Positions 9,015 to 57,200 of a stretch of 64,000 bases of DNA are shown in pieces; positions within the stretch are counted from its first letter, which is position 1, and each line of letters opens with the position of its first letter. This DNA is from Diphasiastrum complanatum (Eukaryota > Streptophyta > Lycopodiopsida > Lycopodiales > Lycopodiaceae). The notes below the pieces were generated by a model. It saw nothing but the letters and a program-made list of their open reading frames with translations, searched no databases and was not told the DNA's origin. The position numbers and the translations under genes were made by a program. The stretch spans positions 47,564,451-47,628,450 of the forward strand of contig CM055104.1 of NCBI GenBank assembly GCA_029204225.1, given 5' to 3'.

Positions 9015-9028
9015 TGGTATCAGAGCCA
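9015..9028 (+). other. Copia-1 primer-binding site
   Basis: TGGTATCAGAGCC abuts the LTR end and is complementary to the 3' end of plant initiator tRNA-Met, the standard primer of plant copia elements. Confidence 0.85.
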
Positions 9029-13538: not shown

Positions 13539-14746
13539 TGTTGGAAGAAAGAGGGTGTGTGAGTGTGAGAAACAAAAAAAATTAGTTTGTAAAGAAAACG
13601 AACATGAAAAGAAGCGAACTCGAAACTCAAATAAGAAACGAACTCGAGCGGAAGGTGTTCGTGCGCAGCGGAATGAGCTATATTACTCTTTTCCTAAGCA
13701 TGACTACGCCTATCAGAAACGAACAGAACGTTAGTGATAGATATCACGGTTGATCTGATTACGTAGTCAAACATTAAGTAATAAAACATCAGAAGAATAA
13801 TTTGTCATGAACAGCTAGACAAATTATTAGTCGCGAATGCTTCGCGAAGAACTAGACTGAGCTCGGCTGATAATCAGTCACGAATTAGTCGTGAAAGACT
13901 AGACTAAATATTAGTCGTCAATAGCTAGACTAATAATAATTTGCTAAGAACATATTACCAGATTGAGCAATAAGAGAGTCACATAGAATGAAGAAAAGCA
14001 TAGCAATATCGACACAAATATGAACGTAGAACAACAAAGTTGTTATCAGATAAGTATCGCAAAATATACATGTCAATAATGTTGTGGAGCACAAGACAAT
14101 AGCGGACGAAACCGCGTGCTCTACAAAACTAATTCAATCTGTAAAAATGGATGAACCTATTACTGACAATACAAAAGAATCAATGCGCAAGGCATCTACT
14201 TCGTCTATCTCTAATAAGCTTATAATGCTGTCATTTTACACACACGCTGAATATGCAAGTGGTATTCAATATATGTACATGATTTTACAGGTGTGCATAT
14301 GAAGAAAGTACAAAGTGGATGTGCTGCCTGTAGAAGATCGTGGGTGGCTGCTGTCATTGTCAAATCTATTAGCACAGTTGCATGGGATGAGCATGAAAAG
14401 GCCACGATGTCAGCCTTTGCTGAAATGAACGGGTGAAGATGCAAAAAATGTGACAAACTGACGAAATGCCTTAAGATTTGATCTACAGGGTATCTTCACT
14501 TTTCCTAGGGCACCTTCGACATTTTGTAAGGCAGTGTCGCCTTTTTCGCCTATCACAAATCATGTGTAAAAACATAGTGTCACATTTTTTGCCTGTGGAA
14601 ATTTACTTGTTTTAGACAGTCGAGTGTTTCGCTTGTCTTATTTTACATATAAATATGCAAACTGTGTGACAACATGAGTAAAAATGCAGCATGAATGGAG
14701 GCAGATTAAAATAGGATTTAGGAGAGTAGAGGAGATAAATCCAACA
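13539..14746 (-). repeat. Copia-2 3' LTR
   Basis: 1208 bp. In element orientation it starts TGTTGGATTTATC (at 14746) and ends ...CCAACA-type (13539). It is the inverted counterpart of 23969-25179. The PPT AAGGGGAGG lies directly upstream on minus (14747-14757). Flanked on the outer side by CTTAG (13534-13538). Confidence 0.85.
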
Positions 14747-17539
14747 CCTCCCCTTGATCTTCAGACTGAGCAATGTACAAAATTTGTTGTGTGCATTAAC
14801 ACTCAATGCTTTCGTGAATATATCTACAACCATCTCCTGTGTTCTGAAATACGTTAAGCTCACCTCCTTGTTGAGAACCTTGCCCTTGATGTAGTGATAT
14901 CTAATTTCAATGTGCTTACTCCTAGAGTGAAATCTAGGGTTGGTTGATAAGGCAATAGCACTATGATTATCACAGAATAAATTGTAGGGCTGTATTGATA
15001 CAGATTAATATCTGACAATAAATTTCTCAACCAAAACGCTTTCTTAATAGATTGAGAAGTAGCAATGTATTCTGTTTCTATAGAAGAAAGTGCGATAGAG
15101 GTTTGCCTACGAATGTTCCATGAGATAGGACCGTCATTGAAGAATAATGTAAATCCAGATGTGGACTTACGATTGTCTACATCTCCTCCCTAGCTTGCAT
15201 CAGATTATCCACTGAGCTGATGAAGATTGTCGTTGCTGACATCTCCATAGTAGATGCACTGGTCCATGGTAGCTCAAATATACCTCATGACTTTTATAGG
15301 AGCCTTCCAATGGGTAATGCCAAGATTAGCCATATATTGGCTGAGTGAGCTTACTGCAAAAGAGATATTTGGTCTTGTATAGACCATTGCGTACATGAGA
15401 AATCCAAGTATCGATCGATAAGGATACTCTCTCATCTGCTCCTCTTCTTGCTTGGTCTGGAGACATTGGTCCTTTTACAAATGCAGGCCTGGATCCACTG
15501 GTGAGTGAGCTAATTTACAATTCATTAAATTGTATCTGTTAAGAACATTGTGAAGATACTTTTGTTGAGTTATGTAAATCAGTCATCTCGCTCTGTCTCT
15601 AAGGATCTGAATGCCCAGACAGAAGTGAGCTTCGTCCAAATCAGTCATATCAAACTCTAAAAATAACATCTGCTTAGAATCCTTGACCAAATTGGTATTG
15701 TTGTTGAAGAATAGTGTATCACCCATGTATAAGGTGATGATAATGAAAGATTGTTGCACTGACTTGGAATAGACGTTACAATCAGCAGTGCTTGGTTTGA
15801 ATCCTTGTTCGATGAGAAATGTGTTCTTTGGAAGTACTCCTTAAACTCGATAGAAATGTATTCTCCACCATTGTCTGATCTTAGGACCTTGATCGTCCTT
15901 CCAGTCTCCTTCTCTGCATGCTCCTTGAAGATTCTGAAGCAGTTGAAGGCTTCTAATTTCTTCTTTATAAAGTACACCATAGTCCCTCTGGAAAATTCAT
16001 CAATAAAAGTTATAAAATACTTTACATCCTTCAGCGAAGGATTTTTTATCGAACCACAAATGTCTCAATGTAGAATGTCTAACAATCCTCTAGCAATATG
16101 CTGATGGCTTAATTTAAATGGTTTCCTAGTCTGTTACCAAATAGATAGTCTTGACAGATAGGTAACTCGACTTTATCACAAGGATAGTTGAGATCAAGAA
16201 CAATAGATTGTCTAGACATTTGTTGTACAGTAGCATCATTCAAGTGACCAAGTCTATAATGCCAAAGTAAACTTTTAATTGCATGAATAGAAGTATTGAG
16301 CGTCTGACTAGAGGTAAAAAAACAATGACTTAATTTATACAAGTATCCATGCCTCTTTCCGAGTGCTAGGATCTTGCCTGTCCTATCAACTGCTTTGCAC
16401 TGATCACATTCGAATTCTACTCTATGTCCTTGATCTGTGATTATAATTATAGAGAGCAAATTCATAGATAAATTTGGTACATACAGGACTTTAGAAAGTA
16501 GCTTGGACTGATCATTTGCAAAGCTTAATATTATAGTACTTTCACCTTTAATAGCTTGTATGCTATTGTCGCCAAGGTGGACATATTTCTTGGTACTATA
16601 AGGTGTATAGGACTCGAAACAGCCAATAAGACTGGTCATGTGCTGAGTGGCTCCAGAATCCAGGAACCAAGAACTATCGTCGGATGCTCCTTGATGGCTG
16701 GTCATGAAGACATCATGATCCGCTTCTTGAATAGACCGTGGAGCTTCTACAGCTGCATTTGCCACTTGATTAGACTGCCCCTTGCTATTGTTCTTTGCTT
16801 GCAGTATCCGACAGTCTTGAATTTCGTGGAAGTATCTACTGAACAGCTTCTTCTTCGTCTGCGGATTCGACTGTTCTTTGTGTTGTGCTGGTTTCTGGTC
16901 TAGCTCTGATTGTTTCGGGTCTTTCTTTTTCTTCTGCTTAGTCATGCTCTTGTTGGTGTATAAAGCGTGAGAATCAGTTGAGAAACTTGAGGCTTTGTTC
17001 CTCCGTGTGTCTTTTTGCAACAACATAGTAATGACTCTCGAAAGAGTCAGTTCTGGATGTGTCGTGATGATCATCACCCAGCTGTCATATGAGCTTGGCA
17101 AGCTTGTAAGCAATTGCATCACTATGTCTTGATCGTCTATGACAGATCCGACAGCGGCCATTTGCCTTAGTAGGTTCTTGAATTGATTGATGTGATTCTA
17201 TAGGGAATCACCATTCGCCATCTTGAGAGAGTAAAATTTCTTCCTAAGATGTAGCTTGGAAGCTATATTCCGCACTTCGTATAGTGTGCTCAAGATGTCC
17301 CAGACTTCTTGCGATGTCTGGGCCTCAGATACATGGCTGATCAGTGCGAAAGCCTTTTTGTCCTTCAACTTCCATCTGGCGATCGTTGTATCGTCTGCTT
17401 TGGATTTTTCTTCTGCACCTATAACAACGTCATACAATTCCTTAGCCATAAGTATAGTTTTCATCTTAAATTTCCACAGATGGTAATTAGCTCCATCAAG
17501 CTTGTCCATGATGGGACTAGCTTTTCCTTGGGAATCCAT
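14747..17539 (-). pseudogene. Copia-2 gag-pol remnant
   Basis: Minus-strand order from 17539. Gag (MDSQGKASPIMDKLDGANYH start) reads to 17198, and after one stop continues to 16109. The zinc knuckle near 16830 is degenerate (YFHEIQDC). Protease FLDSGATQHM keeps the D-S-G triad (about 16670-16640). LWHYRLGHLN (about 16270) is the GAG-pre-integrase motif. An integrase piece LRSDNGGEYI is at about 15880. A deletion then leads into RT/RNase H text at 15650-14790: LGIQI, YRSILGFLMYA-like, RKSTSGFTLF and VDIFTKALSVNAHN. Frameshifts and stops are scattered. It belongs to a different copia lineage from Copia-1, -3 and -4. Confidence 0.8.
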
Positions 17540-17639: not shown

Positions 17640-17840
17640 GTAGAGTCTTGTATTGTGGAAGCTTATCATACTGAAGCCCTCTATCACATCTCAACCGGAG
17701 CCCCCGTCTCGAATCTCGACCGAAGACCATGTCTCAGATCTCGACCGACGCCCTCCATCAAATCTCAACGGACGTCCCTTAACCTTGTTTAAAATCTCAA
17801 CCGAGGCAGTTTTTCACTTATACAGTAGGATGCAGTCTGG
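17640..17840 (+). repeat. Short run of ATCTCGACCGACG-type minisatellite units
   Basis: Five to six degenerate units (ATCTCAACCGGAGCC, ATCTCGACCGAAGACC, ATCTCGACCGACGCCC and so on) spaced 25-30 bp. They resemble the larger array at 45285-46160, which sits upstream of a gypsy gag. Confidence 0.6.
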
Positions 17841-23748: not shown

Positions 23749-23968
23749 ACGGTTCCTCTCCTTGAAACTTAAGCTTGCCTTTGTCAGTCTTGACGTTGTA
23801 TAACAATCCAATTCTCCCTTGACGAGATCTTTGGTTTTGATATTGCGATCATGTCAGGCCTTCCGTTGCTGTTTTTCTACAGCTAGGACGTGAAGCGCTA
23901 GGAAACGAGTTTCACAAAGTTGAAGAAGGTTTTCCAATCTTTTCTTGGTTGATTTCTATGTACTAAGT
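23740..23968 (-). pseudogene. Gypsy-A integrase C-terminus, inverted continuation
   Basis: Read on minus from 23968, the sequence CTTAG continues the codon phase broken at 13538. It gives RLENLLQLCETRFLALHVL, then AVEKQQRKA-stop-HDRNIKTKD (the stop replaces the expected Trp), then after a one-base shift LLYNVKTDKGKLKFQGEEP. This is the standard C-terminal part of gypsy integrase. It is separated from its N-terminal part by 10.4 kb and lies in opposite orientation, which identifies an inversion. Confidence 0.75.
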
Positions 23969-25179
23969 GTTGGATTTATCTCCTCTACTCTCCTAAATCC
24001 TATTTAGATCTGCCTCCATTCATGCTACATTTTTACTCATGTTGTCGCACAGTCTGCATATTTACATGTAAAATAAAACAGGCAAAAAACTCGACTGCCT
24101 GCATAATTACAAGTAAATTTCCACAGGCGAAAAAGGCGACATTGTGTTTCTACATGTGATTTGTTATAGGCGAAAAAGATGACATTGCCTTACAAAATGC
24201 TAAAGGTGCGCTAGGAAAAGCGAAGATACCCTGTAAATCAAATCGTAAGGCATTTTGTCAGAGTGTCGCATTTTTTGCATCTTTACCAACGTTCATTTCA
24301 GCAAAGGTTGACATCGTAGCCTTTTCACGCCCATCCATGTAATTGTGCTAACAGATTTGACAACGACAACAGCCACCCACAATTTCCTACAGACAACACA
24401 TCCACTTTGTACTTTCTTCATTTGCACACCTGTAAAATCATGTATGTATTTTGAATATCACTTGCGTATTCAGTGTGTGTGTAAAATGATAGCATCCAAA
24501 GCTTATCAGAGATAGACAAAGTGTTGCCTTACGCATTGATTCTTTTGTATTGTCAGTAATAGGTTCATCCCTTTTTACAGATTGAATTAGCTTTGTACAA
24601 CACGCGGTTTTGTCCACTATTGTCTTGTGCTCCACAACATTATTGACATCTATATTTTGCTATACTTAATCTAATAACAGCTCTGTTGTTCTACGTTCAG
24701 ATTTGTGTCGATATTGCTATGCTTTTCTTCATTCTGTCTGACTCTCTTGTTGCTCAATCTGGTAATCTATTCTTAGTGAATTATTATTATTCTAGTTGTT
24801 GACGACTAATATCTAGTCTGGTCTTTCGCGACTAATTCGTGACTAATTATTAGTCGAGCTCAGTCTAGCTCTTCAGGAATCATTTGCGACTAATAATTTG
24901 TCTAGCTGTTCATGACAAATTATTCTTCTGATGTTTTGTTGATTAATGTTTGGCTATGTAATCAGATCGACCGTGATATCTATCACTAACGTTCTGTTCA
25001 TTTCTGATAGGTGTAGTCATGCTTAGGAAAAGAGTAATATAGCTCATTCCGCTGCGCACGAACATCTTTCGTTCGAGTTCGTTTCTTGTTCGAGTTTCAA
25101 GTTCGTTTTTTTTCGTGTTCGTTTTCTTTACGAGCTAATTTATTTGTTTCTCACACTCACACACCCTCTTTCTCCAACA
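23969..25179 (+). repeat. Copia-2 second (5') LTR, now inverted
   Basis: 1211 bp, TGTTGGATTTATC...CTCCAACA, followed at once by PBS TGGTATCAGAGC. It matches the reverse complement of 13539-14746 along its whole length. The base quintet before it, CTAAG (23964-23968), is the reverse complement of CTTAG that flanks the other LTR. Confidence 0.85.
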
Positions 25180-37950: not shown

Positions 37951-38605
37951 TGTGAAAATTGTCAACATTTCCTAGCTAGTTTGAGGCCTAAATTGGCTAA
38001 AATTGTAAATAGTTTTGGTTCTGGAGTTTCACACGTGTGAACCAGGCCACAATGTTTTTATTTACTGTATTTTTTCAGTATGATGAAGTGTCAAACTTCA
38101 TACCCTTCAAAATGAGACCATTTTGATGTATTTTGGTCATATAAGCCATTTTTAGCTATTTTTCCTATATAGGGAATATCTAGGGTCAAGTACCTTCTAG
38201 AGAGAGGAGAGAGAGTCATCTTCCTCATCCATAAATAGTAGGGAAGTCGTGGAGAACAGGTTGGAGAAACCTTTTGTATGCTTCATTGAGATCAATAGAT
38301 CATTGTCATTGTTTCTTCCTCCATTGAGAGCATTGTTGTGTGTATTGTCTTCAAGCTATTGTGTATGATCTTAGGTGCTTTCCAAAAGTGGTAGGCTGAT
38401 GTATTATGGACTGTATAATGCTATTTTGGGCCGCACTTGATGTTTATGGAAGTTTCCATTTGTGATAAATGCTTTTTGATCAAGTTCTTTGCATTCTAGG
38501 TAGCATAGAATGTGTTGCCAATTCCTAGCTTATGTAGTTTGGAGTGCAAGCATTCAAGCCAATGATCTTGGAGTTTAGATCCACTTAGGATCTGTATTTT
38601 TCACA
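37951..38605 (+). repeat. Copia-4 5' LTR
   Basis: TGTGAAAATTG...TTTTTCACA. Palindrome TTCACACGTGTGAA at 38028-38041. TATA box CTATATAGG at 38165-38173, followed about 35 bp downstream by a GA-rich AGAGAGAGGAGAGAGAG. The latter part would be the R/U5 region. Confidence 0.95.
38028..38041. promoter_or_regulatory. G-box palindrome in Copia-4 LTR U3
   Basis: TTCACACGTGTGAA, a perfect 14-nt inverted repeat around CACGTG, the core bound by plant bZIP and bHLH factors. It is 125 bp upstream of the LTR TATA box and identical in the 3' LTR (43804-43817). Confidence 0.6.
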
Positions 38606-38620
38606 TGGTATCAGAGCTGG
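38606..38620 (+). other. Copia-4 primer-binding site
   Basis: TGGTATCAGAGCTGG abuts the LTR; its first 12 bases complement initiator tRNA-Met. Confidence 0.9.
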
Positions 38621-39777
38621 TTGGCTTCTATTTACAGTAAGTATTCCATTTTTGGTCATATTTGGATGTTTGATCAAGTTCTAGCATGATTTTGCATTGC
38701 TTTGTTGATCAAATCTTACTAACCTTTGTTTTGTGAGTTGAACTTGTGGATCAAAAGCATATTTCAGGTCTATTGAAGATCAGAGGCTGAAAAGAAACTA
38801 TTTTGGATCAGATCATAACACCTAATCATTTGTGATTGTGAGGCTTGTGCATATTCAATACTAACAATGTTCTTTTCAATCCTATTGTTGACAATCTCCA
38901 TTCTTGGATGAACACTCTCCTTAAGTGGATGAAACTTCTCCTTAAGTGGATGACAAATGCTCTTTTGAGTGAGTTGTAATTCTCCTAAAGGCTGAGCAAA
39001 TCTCCCATTTGGATGAAAGATCCCCTTTTTTGGGTGAACATATTGTAAGCTCCATTGTGAAGAGCATATTGTAAAGATTGTCATCAATTTTGGCATAAAT
39101 TTTGGTGTACTTTGTTGAGCATGTAAGTAACTCTCCTTATGTAATTTGATTGGAGCATTTGCTGGAAGGTGTTAACCATTATGCAAGTGTGTTTTCAGGT
39201 TCTTAACAGGTTGAGGAACATTCTCATGTGAAGTGATCTTAGATCTACATCTAAACACCAAGATTTGACAAGATAGTGAAGCTAGTCTTGTGATTCACTA
39301 AGTGTGCTCATTCATTCACCTCTAAATCTTGTATTTATCACTTGCTGGAGTTTATAAACTTTTAGAAGTGTGGTTTACATGTGGTTTTACAGGTTGAATC
39401 AATATCTTAGTGTGTTGATCATATGTTGATCAAGTTTGTTCATTACTAGGTAATCTTGGCATCCTAGTTTTGGGTATTTTCTAAGAATGCAAGTAACTCT
39501 TCACACCATAACTTGATTTGTTCACTTGCTGGAAAGTTTGAGAGCTTAAGCAAGAGTGTGTTCAGGTTGGTTTGATTTTGTAATCCATTCTTAGTGTGTG
39601 CAAAGTGTTGCATGTGTTTCAATCTTCCTTTCTATGCTTGGAAACCATCTAGGTTCAAGATAGAAGTGTTTTAGGGTCCTAAATCTTCATAGATCTCTTT
39701 ATCTATCATTTGTTGAGAGAAAAGTGAGTGCTAAGTGCTTTAGGACAGAACCTAAAAGTTGAAGAAACATTAGAATC
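38621..39777 (+). mobile_element. Copia-4 untranslated leader
   Basis: 1.15-kb leader without a conserved ORF. It contains loosely repeated segments of the type ACTTGCTGGA...TTTGAGAGCTTAAGCAAGTGTG...CAGGTT (39120-39200, 39340-39400, 39510-39570), indicating ancient internal duplication. Confidence 0.7.
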
Positions 39778-42700
39778 ATGGCTTCCAATGGTGGGATCAT
39801 GCTAGAGTCTAGTGAAAGGTTGAGTTCATCAAACTACTCTACTTGGAAAGTGAGGATGGAGTCCTTACTTGAGTTGAATGAACTCATGGACATAGTTGCA
39901 GAAATTGAAGAGAGACCTCTCACACTTCAAGAGCAACAAAGGTTTGATAAGAAGGCCAAAAGGGCTCTTCATATCATTAAAATGAATGTTACAAATGAAC
40001 TTCTCAAGGAAGTTGGAAAGTGTCAAAGTGCAAGTGAGGCATGGAATGCCTTAAAGAAGCTCTTTGAATCAAAGTCCACATCTAGGGTATTGACCCTAAG
40101 GAGACAAATATTTTCTAGTAGGCAAAGAGAGGGTGAAAGTGCTCATGCATTTATCTTGAGAGTTAAGTCCCTAAGTGATGATTTAGCATGCATTGATGAG
40201 AACATAAAAGATGGTGAAATAGTCCAAGTTATGTTGAATGGTTTGCTAAATGAACATGCTAACCTTGTGCAAAGTTTTGCCATTCAAAGAGTCTTGCCAA
40301 GTGTGGTTGACTTGCAAGAAATCTTATTGGCTGAAGAACATAGGTTGCAATCAAAGCTTGATGGTGCATCCTTGCAAGGTGGAGGTGAAGAGGCTTTCTT
40401 CACAAAAGGCAAATTCAAGGGCAAAGGTAAAGGCAAAGGGAAATGGTCCAAAGGTGGTAACTTTGATCATGATGATCACTCTTCCTCTTCCTCTTCTACT
40501 AAGAACAATAAGTCAAAGTTCAAGTGCTTTTATTGTGGGATAAAAGGTCATTTTGCAAATGAATGTTATAAGAAGGAAAGAGAGCAAGGAGAGAGGCAAG
40601 GAAATCTTACAATAGATGAGGAAGAACATAACACATGTGAATCACTTGTTATGACTTCAAGTTTGTTAGCCAACATAGATGATAATGATCCTTGGTGGAT
40701 TGATAGTGGAGCCTCATCTCACATGACAAGACATAAGGAATACTTTACATCCTTATTGTCTTATGAGGGAGAAGGTAACATCATCTACACTGCAAATGAT
40801 GGTCAATGTGACATCAAAGGCATAGGCACTATTCCTATTTCCCTTTCAACAAATAGGAAAGCAAATCTTGAAAATGTTTTGTACATTCCTTCAATCACTA
40901 AGAATTTGCTTAGTGTAAGTCAAATGATTGACAAAGGACTTGATGTGGAGTTCATTGGAGATGCATGTTTGATAAGTAAATGTGGATCCTTGATTGCTCA
41001 AGGTAGGAGGCATGGTAAACTTTTCAAGCTTGATGCATGTGTGATCTCTAATCATGAAGGATGTATGGCTAGGGAGCAATTGACAAACCAAGAAGTTTGG
41101 CACAAGAGGTTGGGCCATCCCAACTTCAAATCTTTGGAGGTAATGGCAAAGAAAGAGCTTGTTCTTGGTCTCCCTAAAAGTCTTGTTGCAAACAATAGTG
41201 TTTGTGAACATTGTGCCTTGTCCAAATCTCATAGACTTGCTTATTCTAGATCTACTTCTAGATCTAAAGAAGCTTTTCAACTTGTGCATTCTGATATTCA
41301 TTCTTCTAGTACAACTAGCAATGGTGGGGCAAAGATGTATGCAACTTTCATTGATGACTTTAGTAGGTATACTTGGATCTATCTTCTTAAAAGTAAGGAT
41401 GAAGTGTTTGCTGCATTTGTCAAGTTCAAGAATGAAATGGAAAACCAATTCAATACAAAGATCAAATGCTTAAGATCTGATAATGGAGGGGAATACACCT
41501 CAAATAGGTTCAAAGACTTTTGTATAGCACATGGGATTAAGAGGGAGATGTCTAGTCCTAGGACTCCACAACAGAATGGAGTGGCCGAGAGGAAGAATAG
41601 AACCCTTTGTGAATGTGCCAAGGCAATGAGACTACATGCTAATCTTGCTAAGTCTTTTTGGGGGGAAGCTTTAGCATGTGCTAACTATCTATGTAATAGA
41701 TGGACAAGTGCTTCCTTGGATGGTAAAACTCCTCATGAGGTTCTTTATGGTAGAAGGCCGAGTGTCAAGCATTGTAGGATCTTTGGATGTACATGTTTTG
41801 TCAATATCACACTTGATGATAGAACTAAAGAAGATCCTTCATCAAAGAAGGGTGTGTTTGTTGGCTATAGTGAAGTAAGCAAGGCTTACAAAGTGTACAT
41901 TCCTTCTACAAAGAAAGTTGTCATAAGTAGGGATGTCATCTTTCATGAAGAGAATGTTTCCAATGTTGTTGATGTTGATGTTGATGTGCCTACTAATCAT
42001 CATGATGTGCAAGATGTCTTGGATGAAGATGGAGATGCCACTCCAAAGCAAACTTCAAGGAAGACTCAAAGGCAAAGGGCTAAGCCATCAAGGCTAACCT
42101 ATGATGAAAAAGGAAAGCAAGTGGTGGACAACTCTAACTTTGCTTTTCTTACCTCTTTTGATGAACCAACTTGTGTAGGTGAAGCAATTCAAAAGAAGGA
42201 ATGGATCCAAGCCATGGATCATGAGCATCAAGCACTCATCAAAAGCAACACATGGAAGTTGGTAAAGCTTCCAAAGGACAAGAAGGCAATTGGTTGTAAG
42301 TGGATCTTCAAGATCAAGACAAATCAAGAAGGATCAATCAACAAGTACAAGGCAAGGTTGGTGGCAAAGGGGTATGCTCAAGAATATGGTATTGACTATG
42401 ATGAGACCTTTGCACCCGTGGCAAAGATGGTAACTATTCGAATCCTAATCTCTCTTGCAACTCTTTATGATTGGGATATGTGGCAAATGGATGTTACTAA
42501 TGCCTTCTTGAATGGTGATCTTGAAGAAGATATTTACATGGAGCAACCCGAGGGCTATGTTTCACATGATGAGCCTAATCATGTGTGCTATCTCCAAAAG
42601 AGTTTGTATGGGCTAAAGCAAGCACCAAGGAGTTGGTATGCTAAGCTCAATTCCTTCTTACTTTCTCAAAACTTTGTTATGAGTGAGTATGATCATTCTC

Positions 42701-43731
42701 TCTACTTTAGATTGAATGAAAATGATATCACTTTACTTTTGATCTATGTTGATGACATTATCTTAAGTGGTGGTAACAATCTAGATATAGATGAAATCAA
42801 GATGGCACTCAAAAGAGAGTTTGAAATTCAAGATCTTGGTAAACTTCATTATATCTTAGGAATAGAGATTATTAGAACTTCTAAATCTACATTCATATGT
42901 CAAGAAAAGTATGTTAACTCTATTCTAAAAAGGTTTCATATGGAAGATTGTAAAGTTGTTTCTACTCCTATGGAATCAAATGTAAAGCTAACTACAAGAA
43001 GTAATGAAAGATCCTTCAAGGACATTACTCTCTATAGAAAGCTAATAGGATCTCTTATATGGTTAACCATCACAAGACCTGATCTAAGCTTTGTGGTTGG
43101 TAAACTAAGTCAATTTATGCAAGATCCTAGTGAGGCTCATTGGAAGCTAGGAAAGAGAGTACTTAGATACATCTCGGGATCTAGAGATTTTGGCATCTTG
43201 TATGGAGGTACTACACCTAACCTTTGTGGATTTTCAGATTAAGATTTTGCAGGTGATCAAATGGATAGGAAGTCAACAAGTGCCTTTGAAATCTATCTTG
43301 GAGATGGAGTGGTCTCATGGCTATCAAAGAAGCAACCAACTATCTCTCTATCTTCCACCGAAGCCGAGTACAAGGCATTAACAACATGCACCAAGGAGAT
43401 TCTTTGGATCAAGAGGATGTTATTGGATCTTCACTTGCTGGAACCAGAGAAGACTCCAATCATACTTTGTGATAACCTTTCAGCCCAAAGCTTGGCAAGC
43501 AATCCTGTTTTTCATGCAAGGAGCAAGCACATTGAGATTGCTCACCATTTTGTGAGAGATCAAGTCATTGCCAAAGAGGTGGAGCTTCAACATGTCTCTT
43601 CAAAGGAGTGTGTGGCTGATATCTTCACCAAACCATTGGGAAAGGACCTATATTTAATGCATAGATCTAATCTTGGAATGTGCTCAAAGACTATGTTGAA
43701 ACTAGCATCCAATGTTGAAGAGGGAGTGTGA
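39778..43731 (+). CDS. Copia-4 Gag-Pol polyprotein with one internal stop
   Basis: The frame opens at ATG 39778 (MASNGGIMLESSERLSSSNY) after a stop-rich leader. It runs 1154 codons to a TAA at 43240-43242, then continues in the same frame to 43731 (1317 codons without the stop). Gag occupies about 1-245; zinc knuckle CFYCGIKGHFANEC 250-263; protease WWIDSGASSHM with catalytic D309; GAG-pre-integrase VWHKRLGHPN from 440. The integrase core has D506, D568 and E604 (DD35E). RT has YVDD at 990-993. RNase H is interrupted at FSD-stop-DFAGD, probably a TCA-to-TAA change since Copia-3 has Ser there. The rest (DRKSTSAFEIYL, HARSKHIEIAHHFV) is intact. All enzymes except RNase H appear complete, so the copy is probably just defective. 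Confidence 0.93.
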
Positions 43732-44381
43732 AAATTGTCAACATTTCCTAGCTAGTTTGAGGCCTAAATTGGCTAAAATTGTAAATAGTTTTGGTTCTGG
43801 AGTTTCACACGTGTGAACCAGGCCACAATGTTTTTATTTACTGTATTTTTTCAGTATGATGAAGTGTCAAACTTCATACCCTTCAAAATGAGACCATTTT
43901 GATGTATTTTGGTCATATAAGCCATTTTTAGCTATTTTTCCTATATAGGGAATATCTAGGGTCAAGTACCTTCTAGAGAGAGGAGAGAGAGTCATCTTCC
44001 TCATCCATAAATAGTAGGGAAGTCGTGGAGAACAGGTTGGAGAAACCTTTTGTATGCTTCATTGAGATCAATAGATCATTGTCATTGTTTCTTCCTCCAT
44101 TGAGAGCATTGTTGTGTGTATTGTCTTCAAGCTATTGTGTATGATCTTAGGTGCTTTCCAAAAGTGGTAGGCTGATGTATTATGGACTGTATAATGCTAT
44201 TTTTGGCCGCACTTGATGTTTATGGAAGTTTCCATTTGTGATAAATGCTTTTTGATCAAGTTCTTTGCATTCTAGGTAGCATAGAATGTGTTGCCAATTC
44301 CTAGCTTATGTAGTTTGGAGTGCAAGCATTCAAGCCAATGATCTTGGAGTTTAGATCCACTTAGGATCTGTATTTTTCACA
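43727..44381 (+). repeat. Copia-4 3' LTR
   Basis: Same length as the 5' LTR and identical except for one base (TTTTTGGCC versus TTTTGGGCC near 44203). TATA at 43942-43949. Followed by AGCCA. Confidence 0.95.
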
Positions 44382-45284: not shown

Positions 45285-46160
45285 TGGTCCTGACCGATGT
45301 GCCACTCATTTCTCAACCGGGGTCTCATGATCCTTACCAAGCCGAGCTCCACAACTCAAGTCTGGAACGGATCGCTACCTACTGCCTCTCGACCGAGCCA
45401 CTACTCCAATATCCTGACATGTCATGAGTTTCACCTCAACCGATGTTCATCGTTCAAATCTCGACCGGAGCCATACGTCTAGATTTTGACCGAAGACCTC
45501 TTTGCCGAAAGAAATCTTCAAATCTCCACCGGACTCTTCAGTCTTGATCTCAGCTGAAGCGTTCCTTCGCATCTTGACCGAAGTCTTCAGTTAGATCTTG
45601 ACCAGACCCTTCAGTCTTGATCTCAACCGGAGCACTTCTTTCAAATCTCAACCAGAGCACTTGCTCGCATCTCAATCGAAGTGTTTAGATCTCAACTGGC
45701 ACGTTTTCATCAGATCTCAACCGGTGCACTTCTCTCGAACAACCGAAGGCCATAGTCAGATCTCAACCGATGCCTTCTATTGAAATCTCAACTGACGCCT
45801 TCTATTGACATCTCAACCAACGATCTACTTCAATCTCAATTGAGCCGGAGACATTCATCAAATCTTGACCGACGCTCTCGCGACAGATCTTGACCGACAA
45901 CCTCGTGTCAGATCTCGATCGACAACCTCCATCCCACTCTCGACCGATGCTCTCGAGACAGATCTCGACCGACAACCTCGCGTCAGATCTCGACCGCCAA
46001 CCTCCGTCCCAATCTCAATCGACGACCTCGCGTCAGAACTCGATCGATGACCTCACGTCAGATCTTGACCGACGACCTCACGTCAGATCTTGATCGACGC
46101 CCTCGCGTCAGTTCTCGACCGATGGATACTCTCAGATCTCAACCGATCCTTAGACCATCC
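45285..46160 (+). repeat. 25-bp minisatellite, about 25-30 degenerate units
   Basis: The core unit is CAGATCT-CGACCGACGACCTCGCGT with TCTCGACCGACGACCTCG as its most conserved part. Units between 45885 and 46130 keep a strict 25-bp period; older units to the left are spaced 25-35 bp and more diverged. Because 25 is not a multiple of three, the repeat is open in more than one frame and gives DLDRQP-rich pseudo-ORFs. It directly precedes a gypsy gag, as a leader would. Confidence 0.85.
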
Positions 46161-56298: not shown

Positions 56299-56333
56299 TA
56301 TCCTGTTAGAAATCCATAAATCATAATCTGGAT

Positions 56334-56405
56334 CGACAGACTAGGATTCGAACCTAGGACCTCCCCCATATTGGATGGGATGCTCTACCACTGAGCTATC
56401 CGCCC
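56334..56405 (-). tRNA. tRNA-like sequence in TRIM 3' LTR (not a host tRNA gene)
   Basis: 72 nt. A box TAGCTCAGTGG, B box GGTTCGAATCC. D stem GCTC/GAGC, anticodon stem TCCCA/TGGGG, T stem CTAGG/CCTAG all pair. The acceptor GGGCGGA/TCTGTCG pairs except for the terminal G-G. The 7-nt anticodon loop (TCCAATA) lacks the usual T33, so no amino acid is assigned. Confidence 0.75.
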
Positions 56406-56585
56406 TATTTGATAGTTCTCTCTAGAGTGTGGATTGATATTCCAACACCCCCCCTCAAGCCACACGTGGTTGGGGTCCACATGTCCTACAACTTGGGCCA
56501 CCTAACCATGGCTTTGACACCATGAACTGTTAGGTCTAACTTGGCTCTGATACCATGTTAGAAATCCATAAATCATAATATGGAT

Positions 56586-56657
56586 GGACAGACTAGGATT
56601 CGAACCCAGGACCTCCCTCATTCCGGATGGGATGCTCTACCACTGAGCTATCCGCCC
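56586..56657 (-). tRNA. tRNA-like sequence in TRIM 5' LTR (not a host tRNA gene)
   Basis: 72 nt, homologous to the one at 56334-56405. The acceptor stem GGGCGGA/TCTGTCC pairs fully, counting G-T pairs. The B box is intact, one anticodon-stem pair is lost (C-A), and the loop is TCCGGAA. Being the 5' LTR copy, it lies where it could drive Pol III transcription into the element. Confidence 0.75.
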
Positions 56658-56704
56658 TATTTGATAGTTCTCTTTAGAGTGTGGATTGATATCCCAACAT
56701 ATCC

Positions 56705-57200
56705 CAGAGATTGACTACATCTCCATGAGTTCCATTCGTACTAACTACACTGTTGGTTTAAGGAAAATGTTGAAGCCACAAAATGAATATGATGGTGCTA
56801 CTAAAATGAAGACACCAAAGATGCAAAAATGAAGATGTTGATGTTGGCAAAAAGAGAATGTTGATACAAGAGTTTTGAAGTTGATGCTACCAAGACATCC
56901 ATGAAAGTTCAAAGTTGAAACTTGAGAGGAGGGAGTGTGTTAGGACTTAGTAAATAGTAAGTAGGTTGGGGAGTGATTTTTGACAGATAATAATTATAGG
57001 TAATAACCTATAGGTATTAGGTATTTAGTGATAAGAATTAGGTATTAGGTAGTAGAATTTGGACTAGCCTACGATGCTGAAGGGTTAGGGATCCCTGCAT
57101 GGGATCATGTGACAATTGAAGCAAACTATGGCACATCGGGCACAAAGCAGTAGACTTGCAAATAAATTTTAAATCGAAAATGGTAATAGTCAGTTTCAAG
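56705..57200 (+). mobile_element. Probable LTR-element 3' end fragment
   Basis: A purine-rich GAGAGGAGGGAG (56924-56936) is directly followed by TGTTAGGACTTAG (from 56938), the usual PPT/LTR start arrangement. GGTATTAGGTA-type repeats occur at 57000-57050. There is no partner LTR and no coding part, so this is a weak call. Confidence 0.35.

Follow-up and report, generated by a model that had tools for sequence, protein, structure and literature searches.

Diphasiastrum complanatum, a clubmoss, carries a large family of Helenus-type TRIMs in which the LTRs contain a tRNA-like unit. One such element, a complete miniature LTR element of 396 bp, lies on the minus strand at positions 56304-56699 of the window, by which we mean the whole 64-kb stretch of DNA that was analysed. 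It represents a new family, placed in Helenus by the features tested. The LTR-PBS-PPT-LTR anatomy, the 5-bp TSDs, the sense-oriented tRNA-like unit in the LTRs, the tandem arrays of LTRs and interiors, and the presence of at least one related family are established. We think it likely that the element is a non-autonomous TRIM of the Helenus/TRIMp3 kind, transcribed by Pol III from the tRNA-like unit of its LTR and mobilised by the enzymes of an autonomous element. The tRNA-LTR design is already known, and what is new here is mainly a large plant family.

The original prediction had given coordinates for the element, the TSD TATCC, two 144-bp LTRs, a 108-bp interior, a PBS and a PPT, and all of these held when the sequence was re-examined (Table 1). 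The PBS, TGGTATCAGAGCCA, fits plant initiator tRNA-Met. The alignment of the two LTRs is gap-free, and four of the nine differences between them fall at LTR positions 76-82, within the anticodon arm. At window positions 56924-56960 there is also a PPT-like run followed by TGTTAGGACTTAG, so that a further LTR retrotransposon may harbour the TRIM in its 3' part.

Table 1. Features of the miniature LTR element in the 64-kb window (positions are those of the window).
Feature	Position	Strand	Remarks
TSD TATCC, left	56299-56303		identical to right TSD 56700-56704
TSD TATCC, right	56700-56704		matches left TSD
5' LTR	56556-56699	-	144 bp
3' LTR	56304-56447	-	144 bp; sense TGTTGG...TAACA; 135/144 identical to 5' LTR
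Interior	56448-56555	-	108 bp
PBS TGGTATCAGAGCCA	56542-56555	-	immediately past 5' LTR
PPT GAGGGGGGG	56448-56456	-	adjoins 3' LTR
tRNA-like unit, 5' LTR	56585-56657	-	ARAGORN Ser (gga); Rfam RF00005, 50.8 bits
tRNA-like unit, 3' LTR	56333-56405	-	ARAGORN Ile (aat); Rfam RF00005, 46.1 bits, gathering 29
Box A-like motif TAGCTCAGTGG, 5' LTR	56640-56650	-	box motifs as described in PMC10886601
Box B-like motif GGTTCGAATCC, 5' LTR	56596-56606	-	box motifs as described in PMC10886601
Box A-like motif TAGCTCAGTGG, 3' LTR	56388-56398	-	box motifs as described in PMC10886601
Box B-like motif GGTTCGAATCC, 3' LTR	56344-56354	-	box motifs as described in PMC10886601

A cloverleaf of 72 nt had also been proposed in each LTR. 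The unit is present in both, on the minus strand, with a length of 73 nt: ARAGORN found two tRNAs across the 64-kb window, one per LTR of the element, and an Rfam scan of the same window at gathering scores returned two matches to the tRNA model, again one per LTR. The isotype calls of ARAGORN disagree between the two LTRs. Minimum-energy folds of the units resemble a cloverleaf whose anticodon arm is irregular, and their folding energy is no lower than that of shuffles (z -0.73 and -0.35). We infer that the unit is no working tRNA and acts as an internal promoter copied along with the LTR. In a genome of this kind, numerous tRNA gene predictions would be annotation artefacts.

The window's own assembly (1.745 Gb, 5176 contigs) was searched with the whole element, and the best 40 of 1568 candidates were scored, a sample that leans to copies resembling the query and in which older copies must be under-sampled. 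These best 40 gave 53 matches, 48 near full length, at 90-100% identity, with the window copy and overlapping array units counted. The 48 correspond to 40 places, every one of which was retrieved. Four loci (L003, L010, L011 and L017) have the same flanks as another locus and were dropped, leaving 36 distinct loci, made up of 33 single elements and three arrays. The pairs with shared flanks (L002/L003, L004/L011, L007/L017 and L009/L010) are found on other contigs or at other places, and probably represent segmental duplications or haplotypes left uncollapsed in the assembly. Further copies with different TSDs, which the original prediction called for, were thus at hand: a perfect 5-bp TSD is present at 28/36 distinct loci, in 28 different sequences (the other eight have no perfect TSD), and the copies at the 36 loci retain the organisation of LTRs and interior. 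In most other retrieved copies the interior is 116 bp, 8 more than in the window copy. The window element is an older, mutated copy of its family; its LTR-pair divergence of 0.0625 is the highest among the 33 single copies, for which the median is 0.0208.

Across the genome, the exact pattern of box B, a spacer of 20-50 bases, the LTR end AACA and the PBS has 513 matches (261 + 252), which are junctions and not elements, as one array yields several; the reversed control of this pattern has none (0 + 0). The 48 near-full-length matches from the best 40 of 1568 candidates, together with 513 junctions against 0, rule out chance. In 200 kb of host sequence taken at arbitrary places, no match to the LTR or interior of this family (family 1) was seen at E 0.001. 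Searches outside the host returned no relatives, with 0 matches in viral contigs, 0 in genome contigs and none in phages. Among plasmids, one record was matched by the whole element and 15 by the tRNA part alone; all these records are from bacteria or archaea, and the matches, confined in each case to the tRNA part, have no bearing on origin.

The 36 distinct loci hold 78 family-1 LTRs, and ARAGORN calls a tRNA in 76 of them, a proportion that is no measure of LTRs without the tRNA part, since the queries behind both copies and junctions include the tRNA. ARAGORN misses only the first LTR of array L015 and that of array L018. A pattern for a tRNA-less LTR had no match in a set of 75 loci, and the tRNA-bearing pattern matched at 38/75 loci and in 67/78 LTRs at the distinct loci, all of these loci having been picked by a tRNA-containing query. 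Of the 76 calls, 60 are Thr and the other 16 are Ile, Pro, Ser or Leu, which shows that the copies have not kept to one anticodon. Over the 66 LTRs of the 33 single copies, the tRNA part is more variable than the rest of the LTR, with a mean minor fraction of 0.0152 (0.0138 in box A and 0.011 in box B) against 0.0076 in U3 and 0.0047 in U5, and hence no constraint is visible after insertion.

Family 1 has a relative in the same genome. At locus L015 (G000:C3:4648700-4651200), a family-1 array with the TSD GTGGT is nested inside a second TRIM, of which this one copy was read (family 2). It has an LTR of 150 bp, an interior of 73 bp, its own TSD ATTCT, the PBS TGGTATCAGAGCC and the PPT-like sequence GAGGGGGAG. 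The LTRs of the two families align with a score of 93, where the best of 300 shuffles reached 13. Identity between them is 32/42 in U3, 61/73 in the tRNA part and 15/29 in U5, with box A the same at 11/11 positions and box B at 9/11. By eye, 99 of the 100 junctions listed among the 513 have a family-1 spacer and one, at C1:1174938, a family-2 spacer. Between the tRNA unit and the PBS, the family-2 copy of L015 has TTTT, and the family-2-like junction at C1:1174938 only TTT. Inspection of L015 positions 1-1950 by eye shows a yet older, degraded tRNA-bearing LTR with family 2 at its end, and one more degraded LTR nearby on the other strand. With a family-1 array in family 2, and family 2 itself ending an older degraded LTR, the tRNA-LTR TRIMs of this genome are diverse and nested. 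We suggest, tentatively, that the host might hold a long-lived lineage of several related, Pol III-driven families of tRNA-LTR TRIMs (two whose LTR-PBS-PPT structure is clear, along with the older degraded LTRs), in which the tRNA promoter was kept while interiors and LTR ends changed, Pol III supplied the RNA and a Pol II-driven Copia element the enzymes, and spread occurred partly as tandem arrays mimicking a multi-copy tRNA gene cluster.

In the mechanism that we consider likely for family 1, Pol III would start close to where the tRNA-like unit of the 5' LTR has its 5' end (LTR position 43, window position 56657) and would read the interior and the 3' LTR, with no TTTT inside, into the flank. 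Initiator tRNA-Met would prime the element RNA, and an autonomous element, most likely Copia, would provide the enzymes for reverse transcription and integration. The tRNA-like unit stands in sense orientation with boxes A and B intact. An internal TTTT is absent at 35/36 distinct loci, an absence that carries no significance because, for the three elements that were shuffled, 54-60% of dinucleotide and 22-26% of mononucleotide shuffles lack TTTT as well. In the window copy the first TTTT comes 229 bases into the 3' flank, giving a predicted Pol III transcript of ~586 nt.

The choice of Copia as helper is in line with the 5-bp TSD and is a guess, since in the window no similarity longer than ~32 bases was found between the element and Copia sequence, or anything else outside the element. 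Copia-type polyprotein fragments are present in the window, as are PBS-like 12-mers at 9015, 25180, 38606 and 6604. The Copia polyprotein of the window has 7911 protein matches, the best 120 of which show 31-44% identity and are mostly from plants where named. Of two other ORFs in the window, one had a single match, to a protein without a name, and the other had none. Positions 37951-44026 hold a Copia-type element with identical 300-nt stretches at both ends and a 1159-aa stop-to-stop frame containing gag, integrase and RT domains, and it looks recently inserted. Elsewhere in the window, inverted arms at 13575-14747 and 23967-25145, ~9-11 kb apart and 87-94% complementary, enclose Copia-type fragments on both strands, and an array of diverged 25-bp units occupies 45858-46149, with a single related stretch at 17684.

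The same Helenus anatomy could go with transcription by Pol II, the tRNA-like unit being a passive relic left when a SINE inserted into an ancestral LTR. Two observations favour such a relic and count against Pol III: the TTTT in the family-2 copy that was read would halt Pol III short of the PBS, and the tRNA part is not more conserved than its surroundings within family 1. Between the families, though, box A is unchanged and the tRNA part agrees at 61/73 positions when U5 agrees at only 15/29, and the unit is found in nearly all LTRs of a sample biased by its tRNA-containing query. The motif TATA[AT]A is missing at 35/36 loci and AATAAA at 36/36. This is mild evidence against an ordinary Pol II LTR, although in plants neither motif is required for a promoter or a poly(A) signal. 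On this evidence we regard Pol II transcription with a relic unit as unlikely. Far less probable still, and refuted by the copy data, is a one-off insertion of a SINE into the LTR of one TRIM copy; tRNA-derived SINEs exist, and nothing further speaks for it, whereas both window LTRs carry the unit at the same place, it recurs in 76 of 78 LTRs over 36 loci, and the genome has 513 junctions of box B with the PBS. Equally negligible is the chance that these are real tRNA genes in a cluster, with an accidental resemblance to LTRs. The Rfam scores do exceed the gathering cut-off, but the LTR termini, PBS, PPT and different 5-bp TSDs refute it, and the isotype differs between the two LTRs of one element and among copies.

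Tandem arrays raise a further question of which form is active. The three arrays among the 36 distinct loci consist of 3 LTRs with 2 interiors (L015), 4 LTRs with 3 interiors, two of these matched only partly (L009), and 5 LTRs with 4 interiors (L018), and one 5-bp TSD flanks each array. In addition, among the 100 of 513 junctions listed, three lie at a spacing of 260 bases at C2:78731253-78731835. Tandem-arrayed TRIMs are described as frequent in plants (Gao et al. 2016, PMC4717578), and tandem arrays are known for Cassandra (PMC7215508). The array might be the active form, in which read-through of LTRs yields multimeric RNA or cDNA, a route proposed for Cassandra, with singles derived from arrays. 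The lone TSD around each array and the evenly spaced junctions agree with this, but unequal crossing over after insertion would look identical and 33/36 loci are single, and we judge it highly improbable that arrays are the source of the single copies.

The original prediction held that no established TRIM family has a tRNA in its LTR, a claim that gives way to the published description of Helenus, TRIMs with tRNA-derived sequence in their LTRs from fungi, animals and one plant, Selaginella moellendorffii (Kojima 2024, PMC10886601). Its structural reading stands, in that copies, TSDs and the ARAGORN and Rfam results identify a genuine TRIM, present in many copies and with a tRNA-like unit in each LTR, a design parallel to Cassandra; transcription by Pol III is the putative part of that reading. 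With a clubmoss as host, the two plants with Helenus would both be lycophytes, and as far as literature searches show, this adds another plant genome to those with tRNA-bearing TRIMs. Going by titles and the beginnings of abstracts, searches of open-licence papers listed no report on tRNA-bearing plant TRIMs besides Kojima 2024. TRIMs have been reported in Selaginella (Gao et al. 2016, PMC4717578), in a paper whose main text has no occurrence of the term 'tRNA'. A 2024 Cassandra paper presents Cassandra as a deviation from all other known TRIMs, and has no occurrence of 'Helenus' (PMC10853983).

The window element has two LTRs, a total length of 396 bp (below about 1000 bp), LTRs whose tRNA-derived sequence contains boxes A and B, a PBS after the 5' LTR and a PPT before the 3' LTR, and a 5-bp TSD. 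Helenus is described as mostly < 1000 bp, with boxes A and B in the tRNA-like sequence of the LTR, a PBS and PPT, a TSD that in fungi and plants measures 5 bp, disagreement over the isotype, and several families per genome with up to thousands of copies (Kojima 2024, PMC10886601). As to isotype, what is seen here is that the anticodon calls of ARAGORN vary between copies. The Selaginella moellendorffii Helenus has an LTR of 120 bp and an interior of 85 bp, and the present family an LTR of 144 bp and an interior of 108-116 bp in a 1.745-Gb genome. A functional Pol III promoter is left unproven for Helenus itself in the same source, whose author thinks that Helenus arose many times (PMC10886601). 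With box B-PBS junctions that number in the hundreds and little LTR divergence in the copies that were read, the clubmoss family lends itself to testing whether LTR retroelements of the Helenus type really are driven by Pol III.

Other TRIMs resemble the element in part. Compared by description, the TRIMs that Gao et al. 2016 report from plants (PMC4717578) are alike in size, structure and tandem-arrayed forms. The name TRIMp3 has been proposed for TRIMs with a Pol III promoter, grouping Helenus, Cassandra and Ajax (Kojima 2024, PMC10886601). Ajax likewise has a promoter derived from a small RNA in the LTR of a TRIM, but its source is a 5S rRNA fragment and it is described from nemerteans only (PMC10886601). 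Cassandra shares with our element a Pol III-type gene inside the LTRs of a TRIM, the PBS TGGTATCAGAGC and tandem arrays (PMC7215508). Identity with Cassandra is rejected, since Cassandra carries 5S rRNA sequence in its LTRs, whereas the Rfam matches in the window at gathering scores are to tRNA, with none to 5S rRNA.
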